Shown here: piece after piece, positions 3,565-60,826 of the stretch | Layout: each line of letters begins with the position of its first letter | Numbering within the stretch: the stretch's first letter is position 1 | Assembly (NCBI GenBank): GCA_027592755.1 | Contig: JAQCLE010000009.1 | Location: forward strand, 1-64,000 | Direction of reading: 5' to 3' | DNA from: Bacteroidota bacterium | GTDB lineage: Bacteria > Bacteroidota > Bacteroidia > Cytophagales > Cyclobacteriaceae | DNA length: 64,000 bases | Translations under genes and position numbers: made by a program | The notes under the pieces: model-generated | Database searches by the model: none | What the model saw: the letters and a program-made list of their open reading frames with translations, nothing else | What the model was told of the DNA's origin: nothing

Positions 3565-5255
3565 TTAGAAGTCGAGAAGCCTTTGTGCAATATTTAATCG
3601 TAATGACAATGCGGTATACATGGTTGTTTGATCAAGGCTATTATTCTCACTATCCATCTTTCTTACTATTTGCTTCAGGTCGATAAAAAAATTATGGCGA
3701 AGTTGATAAGATGCGGTGATGTCTAGCAATCGGATTTTAGTATCAACACCCTGTCCAAGTGTATTGTCGTAGTCATTCTCTCTAGTGTTGTATGATAATA
3801 AAACGTTGCTGCCATAATTTAGACCAGCCGGATCTTTTCCTTGATTAGCCATAATAAGTTTTCCATTAATTGACAACCTAGGAATTGGCTGATACCTGGC
3901 AAGAAAGATTATTTCAGAAAAATTGGCTCCCAGTGGATGCGCGAGAGGTTGCCCGTAATGACTAAAATTCGTAAATGAGCTTTCATGGGAGTAGGTATAA
4001 GGTCTTGCAAAATTCGATTCAATTTGCAGGTCAAGGTTAGAAATACCGATCACGTCTATATATTTAAGTCCCAGTTGGCCAGCAATTTTGTTACCCCACC
4101 AGCCTGATCCATTAAACAGATCACTTACAACCATTTCGTCAAGTAAAAACTGCCCATAAAACGATAGATGTGTACCGGGATTCCATTTAAAATCCATGCC
4201 AATCAAAGCATTATCCGGACTTCCAACCATCTGCTCAATGCCGCGGTAGAAAATTATTGGGTTCAGATAATTTAATTCAAACCTACCACCAACGGAATCT
4301 TCATTTGAAAAAACTGTTGCCTCAAACAAACCTATATTAAGATTATCGCTAAGATTGATGCTCAGGTGGTGTAAGGCCATGTATTTTTAGGAAACCTTGT
4401 TGTACCTAACGATCCCCCCAAAGTCCCAAATGGAGTGAATGGAGCATCTGCAACCAACTCTACAAACAAATTCGTATAATTCAATCGCCAAACCTTGGTG
4501 GTTAGCTTCAGGAAAAAATAATTGCTTGAATTATCAGAAAGAAACATTGATCGAATTCCGTTACCAATGAAGTTCTTGTCATGCCCGAATTGCAAATTTA
4601 TGTGCCTCGTTGCCTGCAGGTCGATATAGCCCCTTACAGTAAAAAAATCCACGCCATGTTTTTGATATTGTTTCCAGAAGCCTTCGTTGGGGACTGCTCC
4701 AAATTCGCTTACATAGTCCTGCCCATAGCTGGGGAAAACGACCTGGTTTTCACCAATGAACGAATAGAAGGCAATTTTGTCATCAATGCGGCCTCTAAGC
4801 TGAGCCCCCCTGGTATTAATGAAAGGTCTGGACTCACTATCGCTATCCTGGCCAATGCTCCAGTAAATGACGGGATTAAGATGTAAATCGAAATCTTTAA
4901 CATTCACATTGATGAAATCACTTTTTTTTCTATACAATTTGCCAAAGAGGGGCTTCTTGCTGGTATTGGAATCTGTGTTAGAGAATTCCCAATTGTCGTT
5001 ATTCAGGTATTCAATGTTGAATTCATCAACTTGCGATCGGTTAGTGTCCGATACTCGTGAATCCAGAAAAGAAGCGATTTGATCCCGTCTGTATGGTTTG
5101 AAACTGCTGAAAAAAGAATTTGAAAATTTTCCGGATTTAATCTCATAGCGATCTAATAGGTGGTAATAATCGGCATTGAGAGGCGCAAATGCACTTTGGG
5201 CCACAAGGTCGGTGCTGACAAGCACTAAGCAACCGAAAATACAGGGCATTTTCAT
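3565..5255 (-). pseudogene. Wzi/RemB-like outer-membrane beta-barrel protein, frameshifted
   Basis: Two overlapping reading frames (5255-4362 and 4380-3565) together encode about 563 residues. The N-terminal part has a signal peptide ending near LVAQ and the motif YYHLLDRYEIKSG typical of Wzi-like capsule-assembly and RemB-like gliding proteins. The C-terminal part has alternating hydrophobic strands ending in LRLNIAQRLLDF, as expected for an outer-membrane barrel. The frame breaks at the T5 run at 4384-4388 (A5 on the coding strand). One extra A would change PKNTWP into PKKYMALHHLSINL, which continues the protein without loss. This is therefore either a recent single-base deletion or a homopolymer sequencing error. 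The family assignment comes from remembered sequence resemblance and is moderate. It lies just upstream of the ABC exporter gene. Confidence 0.7.
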
Positions 5256-13089: not shown

Positions 13090-14577
13090 TTAATTTAAAC
13101 TTTGATCGGTTGGAAACTCTTTTTCTATTTTTAATTCGGCACGGCGATTTTTATAATGGTCTTCTTCATGGCAGTTAATACCATCGGTACATCTGTTAAT
13201 AATCAGAGACTCACCAAAGCCACGGGCAATTATTCGATTACTTGATATATTGTTTTCTAAAAAATATTTAAGAACATTATTCGCTCTTCTTTCGGAGAGT
13301 TCAAGGTTGTATTCTTCCGTCCCTCGAGAGTCTGCGTGTGCGCTTATCACAAGGACAACGGAAGAGTTTCTTTTTAGAAATTTCAATATTTTGTTAACCT
13401 CTTCTTCATAATCGGATTTCAAGACATCTTCATTATAATCAAATAAGACCAGTCCTTTTTCCAGGAATTGTTCTTCCATTACAAAATCATTCCTGATTGT
13501 GCCTTTCTTTATGTTCAATGTATTTATTGGATGTGAAAGTGGGACATATAGCTCCTTATCAAAGGTAAGCAAGTATTCGTTTCCATATTCGATTAAGAAT
13601 TCATACTCTCCCAATTCATTAGTAATTGTATTTTCTGAAGTAGAAGCAGTCAAATTCTCTAAAGTCACCTTTACATCAGAAAGCATTTGCTGGGTTTCAT
13701 TGCTATAGATAGTACCACCGGCAAACAAATCATGAGCCCACATGAAGACTTTAACACTGTCAATGTCAAAAGTGTTCCTGTTATCATAACTTTTGTCATT
13801 GTGCGATGGGGTATAATCTTTTTTAGAGATTTCTAGTGTATAATCGGTATCAAGAGGTAAATCTAAATGAAACCTCCCGAGTGAATCACTTATAGTTTCC
13901 TTCATCGTCCGTCCATCCATGTCAAGCAGGGAGACATTAACACCTTCAATTGGATAATTCTCTTCAACTTCTATGACTTGTCCGGCAACTATGGAATGTC
14001 TGATGAAGAAGTTATAAATGTTGTCATGTGATTTACTGTTTCGATTCGAAGCAAACAATCCCTGACGACCATTATCGTTCATAATAAAGGAGAAATCATC
14101 GGCCGCTGAATTTGCAGGGAAGCCCAGGTTTACTACTTGAGTAAAGCTGTCATTTGTGTTTATTGAGAAATAAATGTCCAGCCCGCCAAATCCGCCATGA
14201 CCATCAGATGAAAAATAGATTTTGTCGCCTGACGCAAAAGGAAACATTTCGTCATCTTCAGTATTGATCGAACTTCCTAAATTAGTAGGTGTCGTCCATA
14301 CATTTTCTTCCAATCTACTCACATATAGGTCAGTCCCTCCAAAGCCCCCGGGCATGTCAGATGTGAAGTACAGGGTTTTACCATCTTTAGATAAAAATGG
14401 GTGCGCCGTCGAATATTCGTCATCATTGTATTTAAAGGATGTCAAATTCTCAAGATTTCGATCTTCGTCTAGTTCTGCAAAAAATAATTTCAACTTCATT
14501 TGACCGTCTGAACTTCTACCAGAATGTCCTTTGAAGTAATTGTTTCGCGTAAAGACAAGGCTATTATTAGGACCAAA
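13090..14577 (-). pseudogene. OmpA/PD40 (PorE-type) outer-membrane protein, 5'-truncated
   Basis: The visible part has PD40 propeller repeats (LYFTSDMPGGFGGTDLY, IYFSSDGHGGFGGLDIYF), two carboxypeptidase-regulatory-like domains (about 170-340 counted from ATG 14499), and a C-terminal OmpA peptidoglycan-binding domain with ERRANNVLKYF and KNRRAELKI. It lacks the signal peptide, the TPR domain and the first propeller blades found in the 669-residue relative at 52.4 kb. The homologous frame runs upstream of ATG 14499 without a start, reading GPLSFGPNNSLVFTRNNY, and enters the end of the upstream gene. So the 5' portion has been removed rather than mis-started. Any product made from ATG 14499 would have no export signal. 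The two genes probably became joined by a deletion. Confidence 0.75.
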
Positions 14578-16108
14578 GGAGAGAGGTCCTTGAGTTTACA
14601 TTAATATCTATTGAGATCAGATTACTATTATCGAGGCCATCATTTACTTCGAATGTCACCGTTCTGGTCATGGTAACCGGGCCTTCACTTGTGTTTTGAT
14701 AAGTAATGGTACGGAGCGCAAGGGTATAATCATTCAACGTGGCAGTACCCGATAAAATCATTTCACCGGTTAAAGAATTAAAACTGCCGGTGATTCCGGG
14801 TTGGTCAATAAAACTGAGAACATCTTCACCTTGATTGTAATTTTGACTAATATTTATTGTAGCGCCATCCAGGTTTGTATCATCAACATCAGAAACATCA
14901 ATACTCCCATCGATTACAACATTCCCGGAGTTTTCATCATAATTTAAAGTACCCCCGGCACCTGATAATACAGGGGCTGTATTGATAATAACGACCGCAA
15001 AGCTCACGTCCGATTCCGAAACACCCGATGTACATCCCCCAATAATTTGTGCCCTTGCCGTAAGCGAGTCTAATTGCTGAAGGGAAACATCAAGTTGTGA
15101 GCTCCAATTTCCACCAGCGGTTGATTGAATTGTATCCTGGTCAATTAAGTTTTTCAGTGAATTATATACATCTATGAAGATGTTTGCATTCGGTTCAGAA
15201 GTACCTGTAACTAACGATTCGCCAACCTTCACAGGTGCATTAATCGTCGGTTTCGGGGTAGATCCGGATGAAAAACCGGCACAAGTAGCACATAAATCCT
15301 CAAGAATTGTAGGGCATTGATTATCAGACAGATCCTGGAAAGCACACACATTGCAACCACCATAAAGGGTGTCATCCACACCTCCGACATCTGAAATTGA
15401 ACCTCCCAATGCACAAGTTGCTGAAATGTTCGTCACTGAAAAAAAACGCATTTCAGTTTGAAGACTGACCCCAAATTCAGTGATCAAATCAGAAAAAGGA
15501 ACATAGAAATCAAGAAAATAGTCGGGATCATCACAGGTATCAGTTCCTGCGATTGATCTCTGGTAATGCGTATTTTTATCGTATGTCAAGATCACTCCTG
15601 GACAACTATTAATCCCATCAAGGTTATAAACCATTACGCCCTTATTTTCTATCAACGTAATATCAATCTCAAATCCAGGATTGTCAGGCGTGGAATTAGG
15701 GTCATCATCACCCAATCGTCCATCAGTGTCTATCAAAACGGTGTAGCCCTCGACACTGGGTTTGTCCCCTGTCAGGCGGAAACGAAAAATAAGATTACCG
15801 AAATCATCCAGAACACCGTAAGAAGTGAACCCATTGATATCCGCCGCCAAGTCAGTTGTTCCGCAAGCGGGTCCATTTTGAATGTCATTAAGTGTTTCTC
15901 CATCTCCAAAGATGGGCAAACCGAACATTTTCAATTCAAATTCATCAACATAGTAACCGTCGTTGGAAAAGCCTGCAGCAGTTTCGGAAACCCATCCATC
16001 AAGATTTGGATCTAAAACCGCATCGCCTGGCTTGATAACTTCTCCCCTGCCCTGGGCAATAGCTGTCTGGATCGAAATGGCCAATGGTAAAATCCAAAGC
16101 CATTTCAA
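14567..16108 (-). CDS. exported adhesin-like protein, probably 3'-truncated
   Basis: The protein starts with a clear signal peptide (MKWLWILPLAISIQTAIAQ). A domain of about 230 residues, rich in Asp and Gly, is followed by a Cys-rich linker (residues about 250-275) and by Big/cadherin-like modules with VTGTSEPNANIFIDVY and FEVNDGLDN. Proteins with this N-terminus in Cytophagales are usually much longer and end in a type IX secretion sorting domain. Here the frame stops after 513 residues in the unrelated tail SRTSLLWS, which is read from the neighbouring OmpA gene in another frame. No sorting signal is present, so surface delivery by type IX secretion should fail. I cannot name the function beyond adhesin-like. 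Confidence 0.7.
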   Translation of the reverse strand: MKWLWILPLAISIQTAIAQGRGEVIKPGDAVLDPNLDGWVSETAAGFSNDGYYVDEFELKMFGLPIFGDGETLNDIQNGPACGTTDLAADINGFTSYGVLDDFGNLIFRFRLTGDKPSVEGYTVLIDTDGRLGDDDPNSTPDNPGFEIDITLIENKGVMVYNLDGINSCPGVILTYDKNTHYQRSIAGTDTCDDPDYFLDFYVPFSDLITEFGVSLQTEMRFFSVTNISATCALGGSISDVGGVDDTLYGGCNVCAFQDLSDNQCPTILEDLCATCAGFSSGSTPKPTINAPVKVGESLVTGTSEPNANIFIDVYNSLKNLIDQDTIQSTAGGNWSSQLDVSLQQLDSLTARAQIIGGCTSGVSESDVSFAVVIINTAPVLSGAGGTLNYDENSGNVVIDGSIDVSDVDDTNLDGATINISQNYNQGEDVLSFIDQPGITGSFNSLTGEMILSGTATLNDYTLALRTITYQNTSEGPVTMTRTVTFEVNDGLDNSNLISIDINVNSRTSLLWS

Positions 16109-17161: not shown

Positions 17162-17249
17162 GAGAATAAACGCATCAGATTTACCATAACATATTAGGCG
17201 GCTATAGTCAACTACCCCTGACTATAGCCAATTGGTAGAAATAATAATT

Positions 17250-18962
17250 ATGAAATACATAGCACGCATTTTTATGGTCTTCCTCGTAGTTTACCTCCAA
17301 GGAAACTGGGTTTTTGGTCAGGTATATGCAAGAAACGGCATCGTTGCTACAAGTAGTAAAATAGCCTCTGAAGTAGGGATAGATATTTTAAAAAAAGGAG
17401 GGAATGCGATTGATGCTTCAGTCGCAACTGCATTTGTACTGGCAGTCACCCATCCGACAGCCGGAAATATTGGAGGAGGTGGATTTTTGATATTTATGGA
17501 TTCGTCAGGAACAGCTACCACAATTGACTTTAGGGAAAAAGCACCTCTATAAGCATCACCTAATATGTTTCTTGATGATGAAGGTAATCTAACAAAAGGA
17601 AAGAACCTGTATGGAGAGGAATCGAGTGTTAATCACATTGGTACTAAATCGGTGGGAGTTCCAGGGACAGTGGCTGGTCTGTATCTAGCACATCAAAAAT
17701 ATGGGAGTCTACCATAGGCAGATTTGGTTCAACCTGCCATTGATATAGCAAAAAATGGATTTCCACTCACCTATGACCTTTCTAGAGCGGCCAATTATTT
17801 TAAAAACAATTCCCCTATTCCATTTTTACAGGATTATTTTAAAAAGGACAATGGCGAACTCATGCAATTCGGAGAGCTATGGAAGCAGATTGAGCTAGCT
17901 AATACATTAACAGAAATCCGAGATTATGGCCATGACGGATTCTACAAGGGATTTGTCGCAAAAGAAATTGTCCGTTTTATGAAGGAGAATGGAGGCATTA
18001 TTACCATGGAAGACCTTCAGCGCTATACAGCTATAGAAAGAAAACCGGTTAAAGGAACTTTCAAAGACTATGATATCTACTCGATGCCTCCTCCCAGTTC
18101 AGGTGGCGTGGCACTTATTGAAGTGATGAACCTTATGGAGTTGGCCAACTTGGATTCCATCGAATTCAATTCTGCTGCATACGTACATTTGGTGGCTGAA
18201 GCCATGCGAAGAGCTTTTGCTGATAGAGCAGAACATTTAGGTGATATTGATTTTAATTTAGATACGCCATTAGATAAGCTGACGTCCAAAGCTTTTGCGA
18301 AAACTCGTTTTAACAACATTGATTTGACAAAAGCCTCCGTCAGTGACTCTTCCAAATTTGGGCAACTTTATGATGGGACTAACACTACTCACCTTTCTGT
18401 GGCTGATGCATTTGGTAACGCTGTTTCTTTAACTTACACATTGGAACATGGCTATGGTTCAGGAATTGGATCCAAAAAGCTGGGCTTCATCTTTAATAAT
18501 GAAATGGGTGATTTTAATCCACAGCCTGGGTATACGACTAGGTCAGGTCAAGTTGGTACGGACCCTAACCTCATTCAACCTGAAAAGAGGATGCTTTCAA
18601 GCATGACGCCCACCATTGTGGCGAAAAACGGAAAACCTTATCTTGTTATTGGAAGTCCTGGAGGGAGAACTATAATCAATACCGTATTTCAAACCGTACT
18701 TAATGTGTTAGCCTACGACATGCCGGTAGACAAGGCGATTGAAGCCATGAAAATTCATCACCAATGGTTGCCAGATGTGATCGAATATGAGAGAATGCTA
18801 CTATCTCCAGATACTCGAAAGGTTCTTGAAGAGATGAATCATACGTTAGTCCCGGTTTATTCATTGGGTGAATTGATGGGAATTCAAATAGATCCAAAAA
18901 GGAAAATCATGATTGGAGCTTCCGACTCTTCAAGTCCAGATGGAGCTGCAATAGGCTATTAA
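17250..18962 (+). pseudogene. ggt: gamma-glutamyltransferase with two in-frame nonsense codons
   Basis: The intact enzyme is a periplasmic Ntn-hydrolase that cleaves glutathione and transfers the gamma-glutamyl group. The signal peptide (from ATG 17250) and family motifs are kept: GGNAIDASVATAF, NIGGGGF, SMPPPSSGG, the catalytic-Thr region TNTTHLSVADAFGN, GSPGGRTI and the terminal DGAAIGY. Two stops interrupt one continuous frame: TAA at 17550-17552 (after KAPL) and TAG at 17715-17717 (YGSLP-stop-ADLVQPA, where homologues have Trp, so TGG to TAG). There is no frameshift. Everything else is well conserved, so the inactivation is recent or one or both stops are base-call errors. The reading frame resuming at 17724 has no signal peptide. 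Confidence 0.85.
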
Positions 18963-19034
18963 AATTTCTAACAAAACCTAATCTGCATTAAAACGCAGTT
19001 TAGCCAAACCGTTAGTACCCACTACCGTAACCAA

Positions 19035-19889
19035 TTGAAATTCGCTCTCCTAATCCTGATTTTCCTTCTAAGTTGTGGCGTTCCGCAGCAGGATTATGAC
19101 GTACTGAAATCAGAAAATGACCGACTTAGAAATGACTCCACCGAAATCCAGAGGCAACTCACTGAACTATCCTATTTACAAAACCACTCAGAAGTCAGCC
19201 TTGCCAACACGGAAATCACAGCGCTTAAGTCAAAATATAACGGGCAGAGCTATACCATCAAGATAAAGCTTCCCAGGGGGTATGAAGAAGGTACAGATAG
19301 TTACCCCGTGTTGTATGTTACTGATGCCGAAACAAATTTTGGAGGAACAAGCTACATTGTCCAAAGGTTGATAAAGAATAAATTAATTCCGCCAATATTG
19401 GTCGTAGGCATAGCCTATGATACCGATTATGATTCTTTTTACAGGCTAAGAAGCAGGGATCTTACTCCAATTGATAGCAATGAAATGCGTGACCCAACCG
19501 GTGGGGCAGAAAAATTCAGCCAATTCCTGTCGAATGAATTATTCCCACTTATTGCTGAGAACTATCGGGTTCAGGATAATGAAAGAGCAATTTACGGCCA
19601 TTCCTATGGCGGCCTCTTTGGAAATTATGTGCTCCTCAAAAAATCAGAAGTATTCAACAAATATTTATTACTAAGCCCGTCTCTCTGGTTCAATGATAAT
19701 ATGATGATTGCTGAGTTAGACAAAGCGTCATTGAGCTTTGATCCAACAAGGCTTTATATGGCATCCGGTGAACTTGAATCCCGAATCGATGACCTGCAAA
19801 CACAGTTCATTGAGAACCTTAGCAAGAAGGAACCGAAAAATCTGGTTTTTAAAGGTGAAGTAATGGAAAATGAAACCCATAGAACCTAA
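19035..19889 (+). CDS. alpha/beta-hydrolase esterase lipoprotein (esterase D/Fes-like), C-terminally shortened
   Basis: The fold is that of putative esterases related to enterochelin esterase and esterase D. A lipoprotein signal (LLILIFLLSC) is followed by a short coiled coil (YDVLKSENDRLRND), then the hydrolase domain with YPVLYVTDAE, the nucleophile elbow GHSYGG and a Glu/His region ending ENETHRT. A TAA at 19887-19889 ends the frame there. The same frame continues for 15 codons (FGTGFTNGLRFIYSN) to a second TAA at 19935-19937, and this stretch matches the normal family C-terminus. The likely catalytic His is retained, so partial activity is conceivable. The start is TTG (19035); no in-frame ATG precedes the signal peptide. 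Substrate unknown. Confidence 0.8.
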   Translation: MKFALLILIFLLSCGVPQQDYDVLKSENDRLRNDSTEIQRQLTELSYLQNHSEVSLANTEITALKSKYNGQSYTIKIKLPRGYEEGTDSYPVLYVTDAETNFGGTSYIVQRLIKNKLIPPILVVGIAYDTDYDSFYRLRSRDLTPIDSNEMRDPTGGAEKFSQFLSNELFPLIAENYRVQDNERAIYGHSYGGLFGNYVLLKKSEVFNKYLLLSPSLWFNDNMMIAELDKASLSFDPTRLYMASGELESRIDDLQTQFIENLSKKEPKNLVFKGEVMENETHRT

Positions 19890-33736: not shown

Positions 33737-36550
33737 TTATTTACTAAGGTATAGGTTTCGTTCAGAATAGATTTTCAGGAAATAATCATCCATCAGGTCA
33801 TCTATAAAGTAAATTGACTCGCCGGTAGATTTCATTTCAGGCCCTAATTCCTTGTTCACATTTGGAAATTTATCGAAGGAAAAGACAGGTTCTTTAATGG
33901 CATAACCCTTTTTCACAGGTTTAAAGTCAAAATCTTTCACTTTCTTCTTTCCGAGCATCACTTTGGTGGCATAATTTACATAGGGCTCCTTGTATGCTTT
34001 ACAAATGAAGGGAACCGTTCTGGAAGCACGAGGGTTTGCCTCAATGATATATACCTTATCATTCTTTATAGCAAATTGTATATTGATAAGGCCGACAGTT
34101 TTGAGTGCTACTGCTATCCGCTCTGTATAATTTTCAATTTGCCGCATTACAAAATCCCCAAGATTATAGGGAGGAAGGACGGCATAGGAATCACCGGAGT
34201 GTATGCCGGCGGGTTCAATATGTTGCATTACCCCAATGATATATACATCTTCGCCATCGCAAATCGCATCGGCCTCTGCTTCGATAGCTCCTTCAAGAAA
34301 ATGATCCAAGAGAATTCGCCCATCGGGTTTGTCCTTAAGTATCTCAACGACATGCTGCTCAAGCTCCTCTTCATTGATAACAATTTTCATACTCTGCCCT
34401 CCAAGCACATACGAAGGCCTCACCAACAATGGGAATCCGATTTCCTTTGATAATTCAACAGCTGACTCCGCATCCTCAATAGTTCCGTATTCCGGGAATG
34501 GAATATTGTTTTCTTTCAACAGGTCAGAAAATCGTCCGCGGTCTTCAGCAAGATCCAGGGCGTTGAAACTCGTGCCAAGGATTTTAATGCCATGGCGTTC
34601 GAGTTTTTCGGACAGTTTTAAAGCGGTCTGCCCACCCAGTTGAACTATCACCCCTATTGGTTTTTCAAGCTGAATGATGTCGTAAATATGTTCCCAGAAA
34701 ACAGGTTCGAAATATAACTTATCGGCGATATCGAAATCCGTGGAAACTGTTTCAGGATTGCAATTGATCATGATGGTCTCATAACCGCATTCCTTTGCGG
34801 CCAATACACCATGCACGCAGGAATAATCAAATTCAATCCCCTGGCCGATGCGATTTGGCCCTGAACCCAGAACGAGAACTTTCTCCCTGTCAGACACAAT
34901 CGACTCGTTTTCTTCAGAAAAAGTAGAATAATAATAAGGTGTTTGTGCTTCGAATTCTGCAGCGCAGGTATCAACTAACTTATAAACCCGGTTGATGCCC
35001 ATTTCGGTTCTCTTTTTGTAAACCTCGCTTTCCAGGCATTTCAATAGGTGTGCAATTTGTCTGTCGGCATAACCTTTTTGTTTGGCTTCCAGAAGAATTT
35101 CTTTTGGAATCGTTTCAATAGATAGTTTTTCGATCTCTTTTTCAAGTATGATTAACTCTTCGATCTGATTCAAGAACCAGGGATCAATTTTCGTCAACTT
35201 TTGGATTGTTTTAGTTGGAATCCCGAGTTTGAAGGCATCATAAATATGGAATAATCGATTCCAGCTCGGATGCTCCAGACTGTAAAGGATGGCGTCCTGA
35301 TCCTTAAGTTCACGGCCATCAGCCCCAAGTCCATTTCTTTTGATTTCCAGGGATTGACATGCTTTTTGAAGGGCTTCCTGAAAATTTCGGCCGATGCCCA
35401 TTGCTTCACCAACCGATTTCATTTGCAAGCCAAGCTTCCTGTCAGAACCTTTGAACTTATCAAAATTCCACCTCGGTACTTTTACAATGACATAATCGAC
35501 TGTGGGTTCAAAAAAGGCCGAGGTAGTTTTCGTTATTTGATTATTAAGCTCGTCCAGGTTATAACCAATGGCCAACTTAGCCGCAATTTTGGCAATTGGA
35601 TAACCGGTCGCTTTTGATGCCAATGCAGATGACCTCGATACCCGGGGGTTAATTTCTATTCCGATGATTTGATCACTTTCGGGATTCACCGCAAATTGGA
35701 CATTACATCCCCCGGCAAATTGGCCGATGGCATTCATCATTGTTTTGGCCAGGTCACGCATCCTCTGATAAATCGTGTCAGGGAGCGTCATTGCAGGAGC
35801 CACAGTAATAGAATCGCCTGTATGAATCCCCATTGGATCAAAATTCTCAATGGAGCAAATAATTATTATGTTTCCAATGTTATCCCTCAAAAGTTCAAGC
35901 TCATACTCCTTCCAACCCATTATGCTTTTTTCCACCAGCACTTCATGGATAGGTGATGCCTGCAAGCCATCGTTCAAAGCATTATCAAATGCTTTTGGGT
36001 CATTAACGAAACTACCACCTGTTCCACCTAAGGTAAATGAAGGTCTGATGACCAAAGGGAATCCAATTTCCTGGGCAATTTCCTTCCCTGTTAAAAAAGA
36101 AGTAGCTACTTCACCCTTGCAAACATCCACACCGATCTCATGCATTTTCAACCTAAATTTTTCCCTATCTTCAGTGGTCTCTATTGCTTTGATGTCAACG
36201 CCAATCATCTTAACTCCATATTTTTCCCAGATTCCGGCATTCTGACATTCAATTGCAAGGTTAAGTGCCGTCTGACCTCCCATGGTTGGTAAGACAGCAT
36301 CTATCTGGTGTTTTTCTAGAATTTCCCGGATTGATTGCTTGGTGAGTGGTTTGAGGTAGACATTATCCGCGGTGACTGGATCTGTCATTATTGTGGCTGG
36401 ATTGGAATTAATCAGTGTGACTTCAATTCCTTCTTCTCTGAGTGATCGGGACGCCTGACTTCCTGCATAATCAAACTCACAAGCTTGACCGATGATTATA
36501 GGCCCGCTCCCGATGATGAGGACTGACTTTAAACTCTTATCTCTTGGCAT
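33737..36550 (-). CDS. carB: carbamoyl-phosphate synthase large subunit
   Basis: CarB makes carbamoyl phosphate for arginine and pyrimidine synthesis from bicarbonate, ATP and ammonia delivered by CarA. The protein starts PRDKSLKSVLIIGSGPIIIGQ and has two homologous ATP-grasp halves (GGTGGSFVNDPKAF in the first, VRPSYVLGGQSM in the second), each with an N-terminal preATP-grasp domain (LVLGSGPNRIGQGIEFDY in the second). At 937 aa it stops about 130 residues short of the E. coli enzyme, lacking the C-terminal MGS-like allosteric domain that binds UMP and ornithine. I believe this short form is normal in this lineage. CarA is not in the window. Confidence 0.97.
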   Translation of the reverse strand: MPRDKSLKSVLIIGSGPIIIGQACEFDYAGSQASRSLREEGIEVTLINSNPATIMTDPVTADNVYLKPLTKQSIREILEKHQIDAVLPTMGGQTALNLAIECQNAGIWEKYGVKMIGVDIKAIETTEDREKFRLKMHEIGVDVCKGEVATSFLTGKEIAQEIGFPLVIRPSFTLGGTGGSFVNDPKAFDNALNDGLQASPIHEVLVEKSIMGWKEYELELLRDNIGNIIIICSIENFDPMGIHTGDSITVAPAMTLPDTIYQRMRDLAKTMMNAIGQFAGGCNVQFAVNPESDQIIGIEINPRVSRSSALASKATGYPIAKIAAKLAIGYNLDELNNQITKTTSAFFEPTVDYVIVKVPRWNFDKFKGSDRKLGLQMKSVGEAMGIGRNFQEALQKACQSLEIKRNGLGADGRELKDQDAILYSLEHPSWNRLFHIYDAFKLGIPTKTIQKLTKIDPWFLNQIEELIILEKEIEKLSIETIPKEILLEAKQKGYADRQIAHLLKCLESEVYKKRTEMGINRVYKLVDTCAAEFEAQTPYYYSTFSEENESIVSDREKVLVLGSGPNRIGQGIEFDYSCVHGVLAAKECGYETIMINCNPETVSTDFDIADKLYFEPVFWEHIYDIIQLEKPIGVIVQLGGQTALKLSEKLERHGIKILGTSFNALDLAEDRGRFSDLLKENNIPFPEYGTIEDAESAVELSKEIGFPLLVRPSYVLGGQSMKIVINEEELEQHVVEILKDKPDGRILLDHFLEGAIEAEADAICDGEDVYIIGVMQHIEPAGIHSGDSYAVLPPYNLGDFVMRQIENYTERIAVALKTVGLINIQFAIKNDKVYIIEANPRASRTVPFICKAYKEPYVNYATKVMLGKKKVKDFDFKPVKKGYAIKEPVFSFDKFPNVNKELGPEMKSTGESIYFIDDLMDDYFLKIYSERNLYLSK

Positions 36551-36584
36551 TAATGGGGGATGGTAAGGTTAGAACAAATTGCGG

Positions 36585-36592
36585 CAAATTTA
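36585..36592 (-). promoter_or_regulatory. -7 element upstream of carB
   Basis: On the minus strand TAAATTTG matches TAnnTTTG and is followed by CC. It lies 34 bases upstream of the carB start codon. TTG occurs 14 bases further upstream, shorter than the usual spacing to -33. Confidence 0.5.
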
Positions 36593-36743
36593 AAGGTGAT
36601 TCTTTTCAATCCATATGATTAAATTAATTTATAAAAATGGGAAGCTTAAAGACACGAGAATGAGTGGAGTTCAACTTTAACCACACCTCACAGGAATTTT
36701 AAAGAGTTGTTAGTATTATGCCGTACCATTTACCCGAACAATT

Positions 36744-36848
36744 TCATAAAACATGTTCAACGAAATGATATAACCCCGCATGCAATCCGTCGTGATAAAT
36801 TAAAAAATCGAAGGCATCATCTAGGTTGTTGATTTCAAAACCATAGAT
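36744..36848 (-). pseudogene. relic of a DinB-family C-terminus
   Basis: Just after the amidohydrolase stop codon, a short minus-strand frame reads IYGFEINNLDDAFDFL, then IYHDGLHAGLYHFVEHVL and a stop. This resembles the last third of DinB/DUF664 proteins, where a HDGxHxG helix carries metal-binding His residues. There is no start codon or N-terminal part, and the frame runs into the end of the amidohydrolase gene in a different phase. I infer a gene fragment left by deletion. The rest of the 297-base gap to carB holds only the carB promoter element. Confidence 0.4.
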
Positions 36849-37963
36849 TAATCCGGAAATGCAGATCCGTCAATATTTGGCACAATCCTCAAAGCATTTT
36901 TGTAATAGAGTTTCTTGAGAACCTCGTCCGGAAGATTCAAACCGTACATCGGCCAGAACGCATGATACTTCTTGTAATATGGGAAGTACTCGTCCGCTGT
37001 TTCGAGGACTCTGAAATAGGTGTAGTATTCTTCGGGATTGTAAGCGTCTTTTCCAAAGAGGACCCGGTCCTGGTATTTGATAAAGAATTCTTTGGCTGCC
37101 CTGGGCTGCCTTCCCAATTCAGCAATGATTGCCCCAATTTCCACATTTACATTAGGATTCTCGTCGAGATGCTTCCCTAGTTTGGCCAGATCATTGGCCA
37201 TCCAGCCCATGTGGGCATTGATGAAGGTTGTATTCCTGTGGTTTCTGAAAACATTATGCTGCTCCCTGATAATCTGATCGAAGGGTGCAGGATTGGTGTC
37301 GGACCTTTTTCTCCCAGGATGGGTTTTTAGTTCAAGCCAACGTTCGTTGTTTGCATCAAAAGGTTCCCAAAATTGTTTTGGGTCCGCAGAATGGATTAAC
37401 ACGGGAATGCCAAGCTCTCCACATTTTGCCCAGGCTGCATCCAATCGGGGGTCGTCGACAGGAATCCTGTTACCTTTGCTGTCTTTCCAGTTGAAACCGA
37501 GCCCTTTATAAATTTTGAGCCCGTTGGCACCAACTTTGAAATCATCTTCTATTTGCTGTGCCAGTTTTTCGCTATATCCTGGTTCATCAATTCCCTGATC
37601 AGAGATGTTGGTAAAAATTATGAATCGATTGGGGAAGTTTTTCTTTACGTTTTCAACGCCTCTTCGAAGGTGATCTGCATCACCCCTTCCCCGCCCGCTC
37701 AGGTTCACCATAACCTGCATGTTCAAGGCATCCATTTCCGAAGCCAATTTTGACAGGTCCATATCGGGCATTCCAAATTGATGATTATGAACATCAATAA
37801 ATGGGAACTTTGCCCGTGTTAGCGGGTGCTCCGGGACGACAAGGGACGATGGTGGGTTGTAGGTCTCGAAATCCATTGATGAGCCAGACATTTCGCTATT
37901 TGTTTGGGCATTGCAACGCCAAAATGCAAATGGTAAAACCAGAAGAGTCAGATAAAATTTCAT
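36848..37963 (-). CDS. exported amidohydrolase-family protein (amidohydrolase 2 type)
   Basis: The N-terminus (MKFYLTLLVLPFAFWRCNAQ) is a signal peptide. The mature protein is a metal-dependent TIM barrel of the amidohydrolase-2 class: FIDVHNHQFG carries the HxH ligands, VLIHSADP another His, FINAHMGWMA the next and LFGKDAYNP the final Asp. GANGLKIYKGLG supplies the strand with the conserved Lys. Family members include decarboxylases and lactonases, so the reaction is uncertain. It is likely periplasmic. It is the nearest intact gene upstream of carB on the same strand, with a relic between them. Confidence 0.9.
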   Translation of the reverse strand: MKFYLTLLVLPFAFWRCNAQTNSEMSGSSMDFETYNPPSSLVVPEHPLTRAKFPFIDVHNHQFGMPDMDLSKLASEMDALNMQVMVNLSGRGRGDADHLRRGVENVKKNFPNRFIIFTNISDQGIDEPGYSEKLAQQIEDDFKVGANGLKIYKGLGFNWKDSKGNRIPVDDPRLDAAWAKCGELGIPVLIHSADPKQFWEPFDANNERWLELKTHPGRKRSDTNPAPFDQIIREQHNVFRNHRNTTFINAHMGWMANDLAKLGKHLDENPNVNVEIGAIIAELGRQPRAAKEFFIKYQDRVLFGKDAYNPEEYYTYFRVLETADEYFPYYKKYHAFWPMYGLNLPDEVLKKLYYKNALRIVPNIDGSAFPD

Positions 37964-38062: not shown

Positions 38063-38733
38063 TCACTCCCCCAGAATGGCAGTTTTTAGGAATTGATTCA
38101 AGGGAGATGCTGCCTGGTAATCCTTAACCAAAATTGGGATGAGCTTATCATCAAAGATCAAATCAGCAGGGTATTTTTTGAAATAGTAAAATCCTTTATT
38201 CGCTATTAGCGGTTGTTGATCTGCTATTTCCTGAAACTCAGCAGATAGCCTTTCATTTTGTTCGCCGTGAATCTCACCAAAGACATCCTTGAATTTCTTA
38301 TCATTCAACAGCCTGCTGAATTCATCGAGGTTTTCTTTTATATGCATCCTGACATTTTGGAGATCATCCTTTTCAAGCATATGGCAGCCGCTGTATGACC
38401 TGCATCATCATTGTTAATTTGGATGTACATCCCGGGAAGTCTCATGTTTTTTTTCCCATGTGCTGAAATGATGGCCGACATCTGGGTCTTATAAGGAGTT
38501 TTGTCTTTGCTAAATCGAATGTCTTTATTGATGCGCATCATTGCTCCTTTGGCATCGTGAGGAATTGGTCCTTCAATATCATGAAGAGCATCGATCAAAT
38601 CAGTTAGAAAATTTATGAACGGGTCCTTAACATTTTTTTCATAACTTTTTTTGTTCGCGTGGAACCAATCAGTGTTGTTGTTATTAGATAAATCGTTAAA
38701 AAAATCAGAGAAATTGGAAGTGAAGTAGGCCAT
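38063..38733 (-). pseudogene. DUF2461-family protein, frameshifted
   Basis: Two overlapping frames (38733-38338 and 38380-38063) make one protein of about 223 aa, the usual length for DUF2461 (TIGR02453). The first part has FFNDLSNNNNTDWFHANK and INKDIRFSKDKTPYKT. The second has MLEKDDLQNVRMHIKEN and KGFYYFKKYPADLIFDDKL. The break falls at 38396-38397: the coding strand reads GCAGGTCATACAGCGGC where a three-base codon should stand between GGT and TAC, so one base is missing. Adding one base restores GLYSGCHMLEKDDL. The function of the family is unknown. Confidence 0.85.
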
Positions 38734-59977: not shown

Positions 59978-60826
59978 TTAATTGTATAATGTCCCTGAAT
60001 TAACAACAGGAGTCACGTCTTTGTCAGCACAGAGCACAACCATTAAATTACTGACCATTGCGGCTTTCCTTTCCTCGTCCAGCTCAATGATGTTTTTCTT
60101 GCTGAGTTCATCAAGCGCCATATCGACCATGCTTACAGCTCCTTCTACAATCTTATGCCGGGCGGCTACGATGGCTGTTGCCTGCTGTCTACGAAGCATG
60201 GCGCTGGCAATTTCTTCTGCATAAGCCAGGTACCCTATTCTGGCCTCCAATATCTCTATTCCGGCAATATGAAGTCGGTCCTCCACTTCTTTTTCCAGGG
60301 CCTCATTCACTTCATCAAGACCAGACCTTAGGGTCATCTCTTTTTGTTCGTCATCAAAATTATCATAAGGATATCGGGCTGCCATTTTTCTTACTGCCGC
60401 ATCAGTCTGTACACGAACAAAATTTTCATAATTGGATCAAATCAACTTTTAGCGAGAGGTATCCTTTACCCGCCACACCAGGATGACCGAAATCATAATG
60501 GGATTCCCGATTTTATCATTGACCTTGACCCGCTCACTGTCAAAATTCCTCGCTCTCAGTGAAATGGACTTTTTGTAATAGAAGGGGTTCGCCCAAAAGA
60601 AACCGTTGGATTTTATGGTACCCTTGTATTTTCCGAAAAGCGTCAAAACCCTTGAACCATTGGGGCAAACAAAGAAAAACCCCGGGAGAATAAACAGAAA
60701 AGCTATAAGTGGTACTACACCTATTCCAGTTCTAATTGTTAAAATTGTTACAGCCAGGAAAACCACCTCAACTACTAACATAATATAGGCGGAGATCGGC
60801 TTATTTATTGTTTCTTTCGAGTTCAT
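59978..60826 (-). pseudogene. SPFH/Band 7 domain protein, interrupted by a short frame excursion
   Basis: Two segments in the same frame belong to one SPFH protein. The first (60826-60449) has two membrane segments near the N-terminus and the SPFH strands GFFWANPFYYKKSISLRARN and NPIMISVILVWRVKDTSR. The second (from 60427 on) has NYENFVRVQTDAAVRKMAAR, LRSGLDEVNEALEKEVEDRL, LRRQQATAIVAARHKIVEG. Between them stand TAA (60449-60451) and TGA (60437-60439). Reading this small stretch in another phase removes both stops (LKVDLIQ), so one deletion and one compensating insertion explain it. It is the first gene of the SPFH/membrane-protein/Arc operon. SPFH proteins organise membrane microdomains. Confidence 0.7.

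Follow-up and report, generated by a model that had tools for sequence, protein, structure and literature searches.

On the minus strand of the window (the whole 64,000-nucleotide stretch of DNA that was analyzed), the N-terminus of an exported adhesin (16108-14597) abuts a PorE-like OmpA/PD40 gene that has lost its head and retains only the C-terminal two thirds (14595-13090). The observation itself, a headless OmpA gene joined to a 3'-truncated adhesin gene, was confirmed, and it is probably explained by a real deletion of ~4 to 6 kb that put a single T9SS type-B surface module out of action, in a genome that is decaying and apparently rich in IS. Judged by homology, chance is excluded as the source of the juxtaposition, because each partner is independently homologous over ~490 aa to one of two genes that are separated by several kb in relatives. 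The locus would be a remnant rather than a working member of a T9SS type-B module, a deletion pseudogene pair predicted to derive from a known module, and it suggests gene decay, not a novel system. If the deletion is real, it offers a clean breakpoint and the one-step inactivation of a whole T9SS cargo/anchor/peptidoglycan-tether module, in a Cytophagales-like genome apparently caught amid IS expansion and gene decay and with a congener free of such a load. If it is an artefact, adhesin/PorP loci in draft metagenome genomes give false truncated genes. Either way, both ORFs in the window are to be treated as fragments.

The junction and its two partners

The adhesin ORF (16108..14567, minus strand, 513 aa) starts with a signal peptide (MKWLWILPLAISIQTAIAQ); its C-terminal end reads ISIDINVNSRTSLLWS followed by the stop codon, and it closes with DINVNSRTSLLWS. 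The adhesin remnant proper (14597..16108, minus strand), delimited by homology, comprises the signal peptide, a long N-terminal domain, and one cadherin-like module (~14594-14986). It was 67% identical to its homologue in the congener G001 (contig C458), with the match ending at DINV (14597), and 43 to 45% identical to the homologue in G028, and no Pfam or NCBIfam model matched it. Compared with the adhesins of relatives, it lacks further repeats and the C-terminal type-B sorting domain (CHU_C/TIGR04131).

The reading in the OmpA frame (14592..13090) starts with QGPLSFGPNNSLVFTRNNY and opens at QGPLSFGP with no start codon. The remnant was 62% identical to a G001 protein (contig C587); the match begins around residue 239 of that ORF, within (H)EGPLSFGP. 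On this homology and on its Pfam domains, 13090..14595 (minus strand) was assigned to a 5'-truncated PorE-like gene, in which part of the beta-propeller (PD40, ~14320-14403), CarboxypepD_reg (~13801-13989), and the OmpA domain (~13189-13446) follow one another on the minus strand. In the ORF list, the first ATG ORF that is left (13090..14499, minus strand) encodes 469 aa without a signal peptide. A complete PorE-like protein has a signal peptide, TPR, propeller, CarboxypepD_reg, and OmpA; only the C-terminal part is present here, and the signal peptide, the TPR, and the first ~238 residues are missing, while TPR was found in the OmpA protein of an intact relative and in the N-terminus of the congener's. 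Neither the protein nor its counterpart in the intact relative reached the NCBIfam cut-offs set for PorE (NF052230) or CHU_0125 (NF053607).

Homology to G001 and an in-frame stop placed the breakpoint at 14590-14596. A TAA read at 14598-14596 in the OmpA frame implies that OmpA-derived DNA starts no earlier than 14595, and adhesin-derived DNA reaches ~14590 at the furthest, leaving at most ~6 bp (ACTCAA) that can be assigned to either side of the deletion junction (minus strand). Frame reading showed that the last stretch of the adhesin ORF with its stop (14567..14593, minus strand), SRTSLLWS, is OmpA-derived DNA read in another frame, save for the first codon, which lies within the ambiguous junction. 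The initial annotation had noted an exported protein with a signal peptide and this odd tail, an OmpA frame without a start, and a breakpoint at about 14586-14594; the signal peptide and the out-of-frame origin of the tail bear out the first point, no ATG precedes 14499 in the OmpA reading, and the proposed interval fits the homology-based one.

No IS copy or IS end was found at the junction, and none of the contig-end repeat families matched the window near 14590. An inverted repeat of 6 bp at 14590-14569 (AGGACC...GGTCCT) lies in coding sequence (GP...GP), is not conserved in the congener, and was set aside as a chance feature. The most likely route would be illegitimate recombination with little or no homology, a single deletion of ~4 to 6 kb whose junction microhomology would not exceed ~6 bp.

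Gene order in relatives and the ancestral module

In five genomes of the same family (G005, G006, G011, G028, and G032), an adhesin with a CHU_C/TIGR04131 type-B sorting domain is followed, tightly packed, by a PorP/SprF gene (ORFs of 303 to 321 aa) and an OmpA/PD40 gene (734 to 746 aa); the Pfam and NCBIfam names of the trio were verified on G028, a complete single-contig genome, and on G005 for the adhesin only. This is the order that the initial annotation had predicted for the ancestral locus (a long adhesin with a T9SS sorting domain, a PorP/SprF-like gene, and the OmpA gene), and the comparison of gene order that it proposed found the full trio in these relatives. In G001 (isolate OFTM329), the one congener compared, the adhesin runs at least 843 aa past the break until the contig ends, and a separate contig carries an intact OmpA gene of 737 aa preceded by a PorP tail. 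Relatives have both genes in intact form, together with the DNA between them, and the PorP/SprF gene that they carry is absent between the adhesin and OmpA genes of the window. By arithmetic, the loss amounts to ~5.4 kb with G028 as the yardstick and to at least ~4.2 kb with G001. The adhesin homologue of G032 (G032:C128, L046 ~9190) has an in-frame TAA within its module region.

A wider census of a Bacteroidota set covered 84 loci. The OmpA N-terminus was present in 79 of 81 assessable genes, PorP lay directly upstream of OmpA in 60 of the 76 loci with enough upstream sequence, and a CHU_C protein stood next to PorP in 57/59 of the PorP-bearing loci. An adhesin remnant joined compactly to an OmpA gene was seen in no relative examined, this census included. 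That observation weighs against a native and functional compact arrangement, in which a short secreted protein would be followed by a short OmpA protein, as the two long and open ORFs might suggest; so do the adhesin without CHU_C, the OmpA piece with no signal peptide and an incomplete propeller, and the derivation of SRTSLLWS from OmpA DNA out of frame. We regard this arrangement as the least probable of the explanations considered.

The ancestral locus fits the PorP/PorE module in predicted domain content, although its OmpA protein falls under the curated PorE thresholds. In Porphyromonas gingivalis, a type-B CTD protein binds PorP, PorP binds PorE (a TPR/beta-propeller/CarboxypepD_reg/OmpA protein), and PorE binds peptidoglycan; in Flavobacterium johnsoniae, six porP-like genes adjoin porE-like genes (PMC9143113). 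The protein types encoded by the intact relatives are the same three as in PG1035-PorP-PorE of P. gingivalis and the F. johnsoniae pairs, whereas in the window the cargo has no CTD, no PorP is left, and the PorE-like protein lacks its N-terminal part.

The ancestor would have had an adhesin with a type-B C-terminal signal, anchored by a PorP/SprF-like outer-membrane barrel that was in turn tied to peptidoglycan by a PorE-like periplasmic protein (TPR, beta-propeller, CarboxypepD_reg, and OmpA). The deletion would have taken the later adhesin repeats with the sorting domain, porP in its entirety, and some 238 residues from the start of the PorE-like protein. What is left of the adhesin would still be exportable by Sec, but could neither cross the outer membrane by the T9SS nor be anchored. 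The surface module is predicted to be inactive, since it would be left without a secretion signal, without the barrel, and, in the tether, without the export signal and the TPR part.

Assembly evidence

The host assembly comprises 4.21 Mb in 196 contigs and has a completeness of 98.01%; the window is part of its contig C188 (66,217 bp). An OmpA N-terminus, a PorP orthologue, and an adhesin C-terminus belonging to this locus were not found among the binned contigs of that assembly. Other contigs held only paralogues (C47, beside a gldK-like gene; C14; and a truncated copy on C90), and the C90 PorP was rejected as the missing gene, being 68% identical to another PorP of the congener (C135). A single deletion removing the adhesin C-terminus, the middle gene, and the OmpA N-terminus, as first suggested from the sequence, is supported by the gene order in relatives and by the lack of these pieces in the host assembly.

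The main competing explanation is an assembly error, in which an adhesin locus that is rich in repeats or varies between strains was collapsed or misjoined, the missing 4 to 6 kb resides in unbinned short contigs, and the species has the normal trio. Adhesin repeats are difficult to assemble, contigs of the congener likewise end within the adhesin or PorP at such loci, several similar sites in one assembly may have a common technical cause, and contigs too short for binning could carry the missing pieces. Moreover, the reading frames of both remnants are otherwise clean and uninterrupted by stops, so that the event would be either recent or not real. Against such an error, neither a long shared repeat nor an N gap lies at the join, no N runs occurred in 1.15 Mb of sampled host contigs, and the missing pieces, which are not repetitive, were not recovered from the assembly. 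In the sampled host contigs, ends sharing a common repeat were mostly identical for their first 64 to 69 bp only and then diverged, the pattern expected of a graph assembler halting inside a repeat, which suggests that joins required long overlaps. Together, the overlap of at most ~6 bp, the lack of N runs, and the halting of contigs 64 to 69 bp into repeats make a false join unlikely; a join with an overlap of ~6 bp is hard to produce without crossing reads. The truncation on C90 (see below), moreover, is internal to its contig, beside tsaD. We consider an assembly error unlikely on balance, though it retains appreciable weight; the junction is probably physical DNA in the population.

Surface adhesin loci often differ between strains, and the host genome is a multi-contig draft assembly, probably from a metagenome; intact and deleted alleles might thus coexist in a mixed population, of which the assembler retained the simpler, deleted path. 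No trace of an intact allele was seen in the binned contigs, and we hold this to be very improbable. It overlaps with the preferred explanation, because the deletion would still be real.

Other truncations, repeats, and disrupted genes in the host genome

What the locus adds beyond the known module is modest, namely, that the host genome has further similar truncations and is heavily loaded with IS-like repeats. On C90, a PorP/SprF gene (~18717-19610) begins abruptly at about residue 48 of its 68%-identical congener orthologue (L185:3614-4564), which is intact and stands behind a CHU_C adhesin. The host has no such adhesin there, and a tsaD-like gene lies just upstream of its headless PorP. 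On C47 (~35939-37730; L218:5939-7730), a 488-aa exported FG-GAP protein leads into the final 80 residues of a different PorP/SprF. The latter truncation is less certain, because no close intact orthologue was found. A DDE transposase gene lies ~0.8 kb beyond it. The host genome thus has at least two, and probably three, such truncations, and the clearly cut PorP pieces of G001 (C587, C425, and C80) were all at contig ends rather than contig-internal.

Eight repeat families accounted for 91 of 132 sampled contig ends in the host, with up to 28 copies in the sample, compared with 0/40 in G001 and 4/28 in G006. Both ends of C188 (window start, ~1-68; L239 end) belong to such families. An IS expansion is likely behind the repeated contig ends, since one family flanks a DDE transposase inside a contig (L243:4032-4937); the other families were seen as ends only.

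Deletion pseudogenes occur in bacterial genomes that have undergone IS expansion. Like those genomes, the host has many repeated IS-like contig ends, window genes split by nonsense codons or frameshifts, and several truncated loci. Unlike them, it has no IS at the junction, and no genome-wide excess of disrupted genes was detected by a coding-potential scan, reference tblastn, or congener orthologues, a comparison of low power that covered only ~50 kb of host sequence. Decay would be the cause of the deletion. It is doubtful, and we give it little credence, that repeated losses of the same polarity (the sorting signal of the cargo together with the 5' part of the anchor gene that follows) from type-B adhesin/PorP/PorE modules during an IS burst reflect loss of surface adhesion under selection, as opposed to random decay.

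Three other genes in the window, and apparently a fourth, were also interrupted. A gamma-glutamyltranspeptidase gene (17232-18962, plus strand) has an in-frame TAA at 17550 and a TAG at 17715 in an otherwise single open frame. A DUF2461 gene (38063-38733, minus strand) consists of two overlapping ORFs in different frames that cover profile positions 3 to 105 and 113 to 208, and a Band_7/SPFH gene (59978-60826, minus strand) is in two pieces covering profile positions 8 to 75 and 113 to 170. At 3565-5255 (minus strand), two overlapping ORFs in different frames, which had no Pfam match, resemble a single outer-membrane protein that a frameshift has divided.
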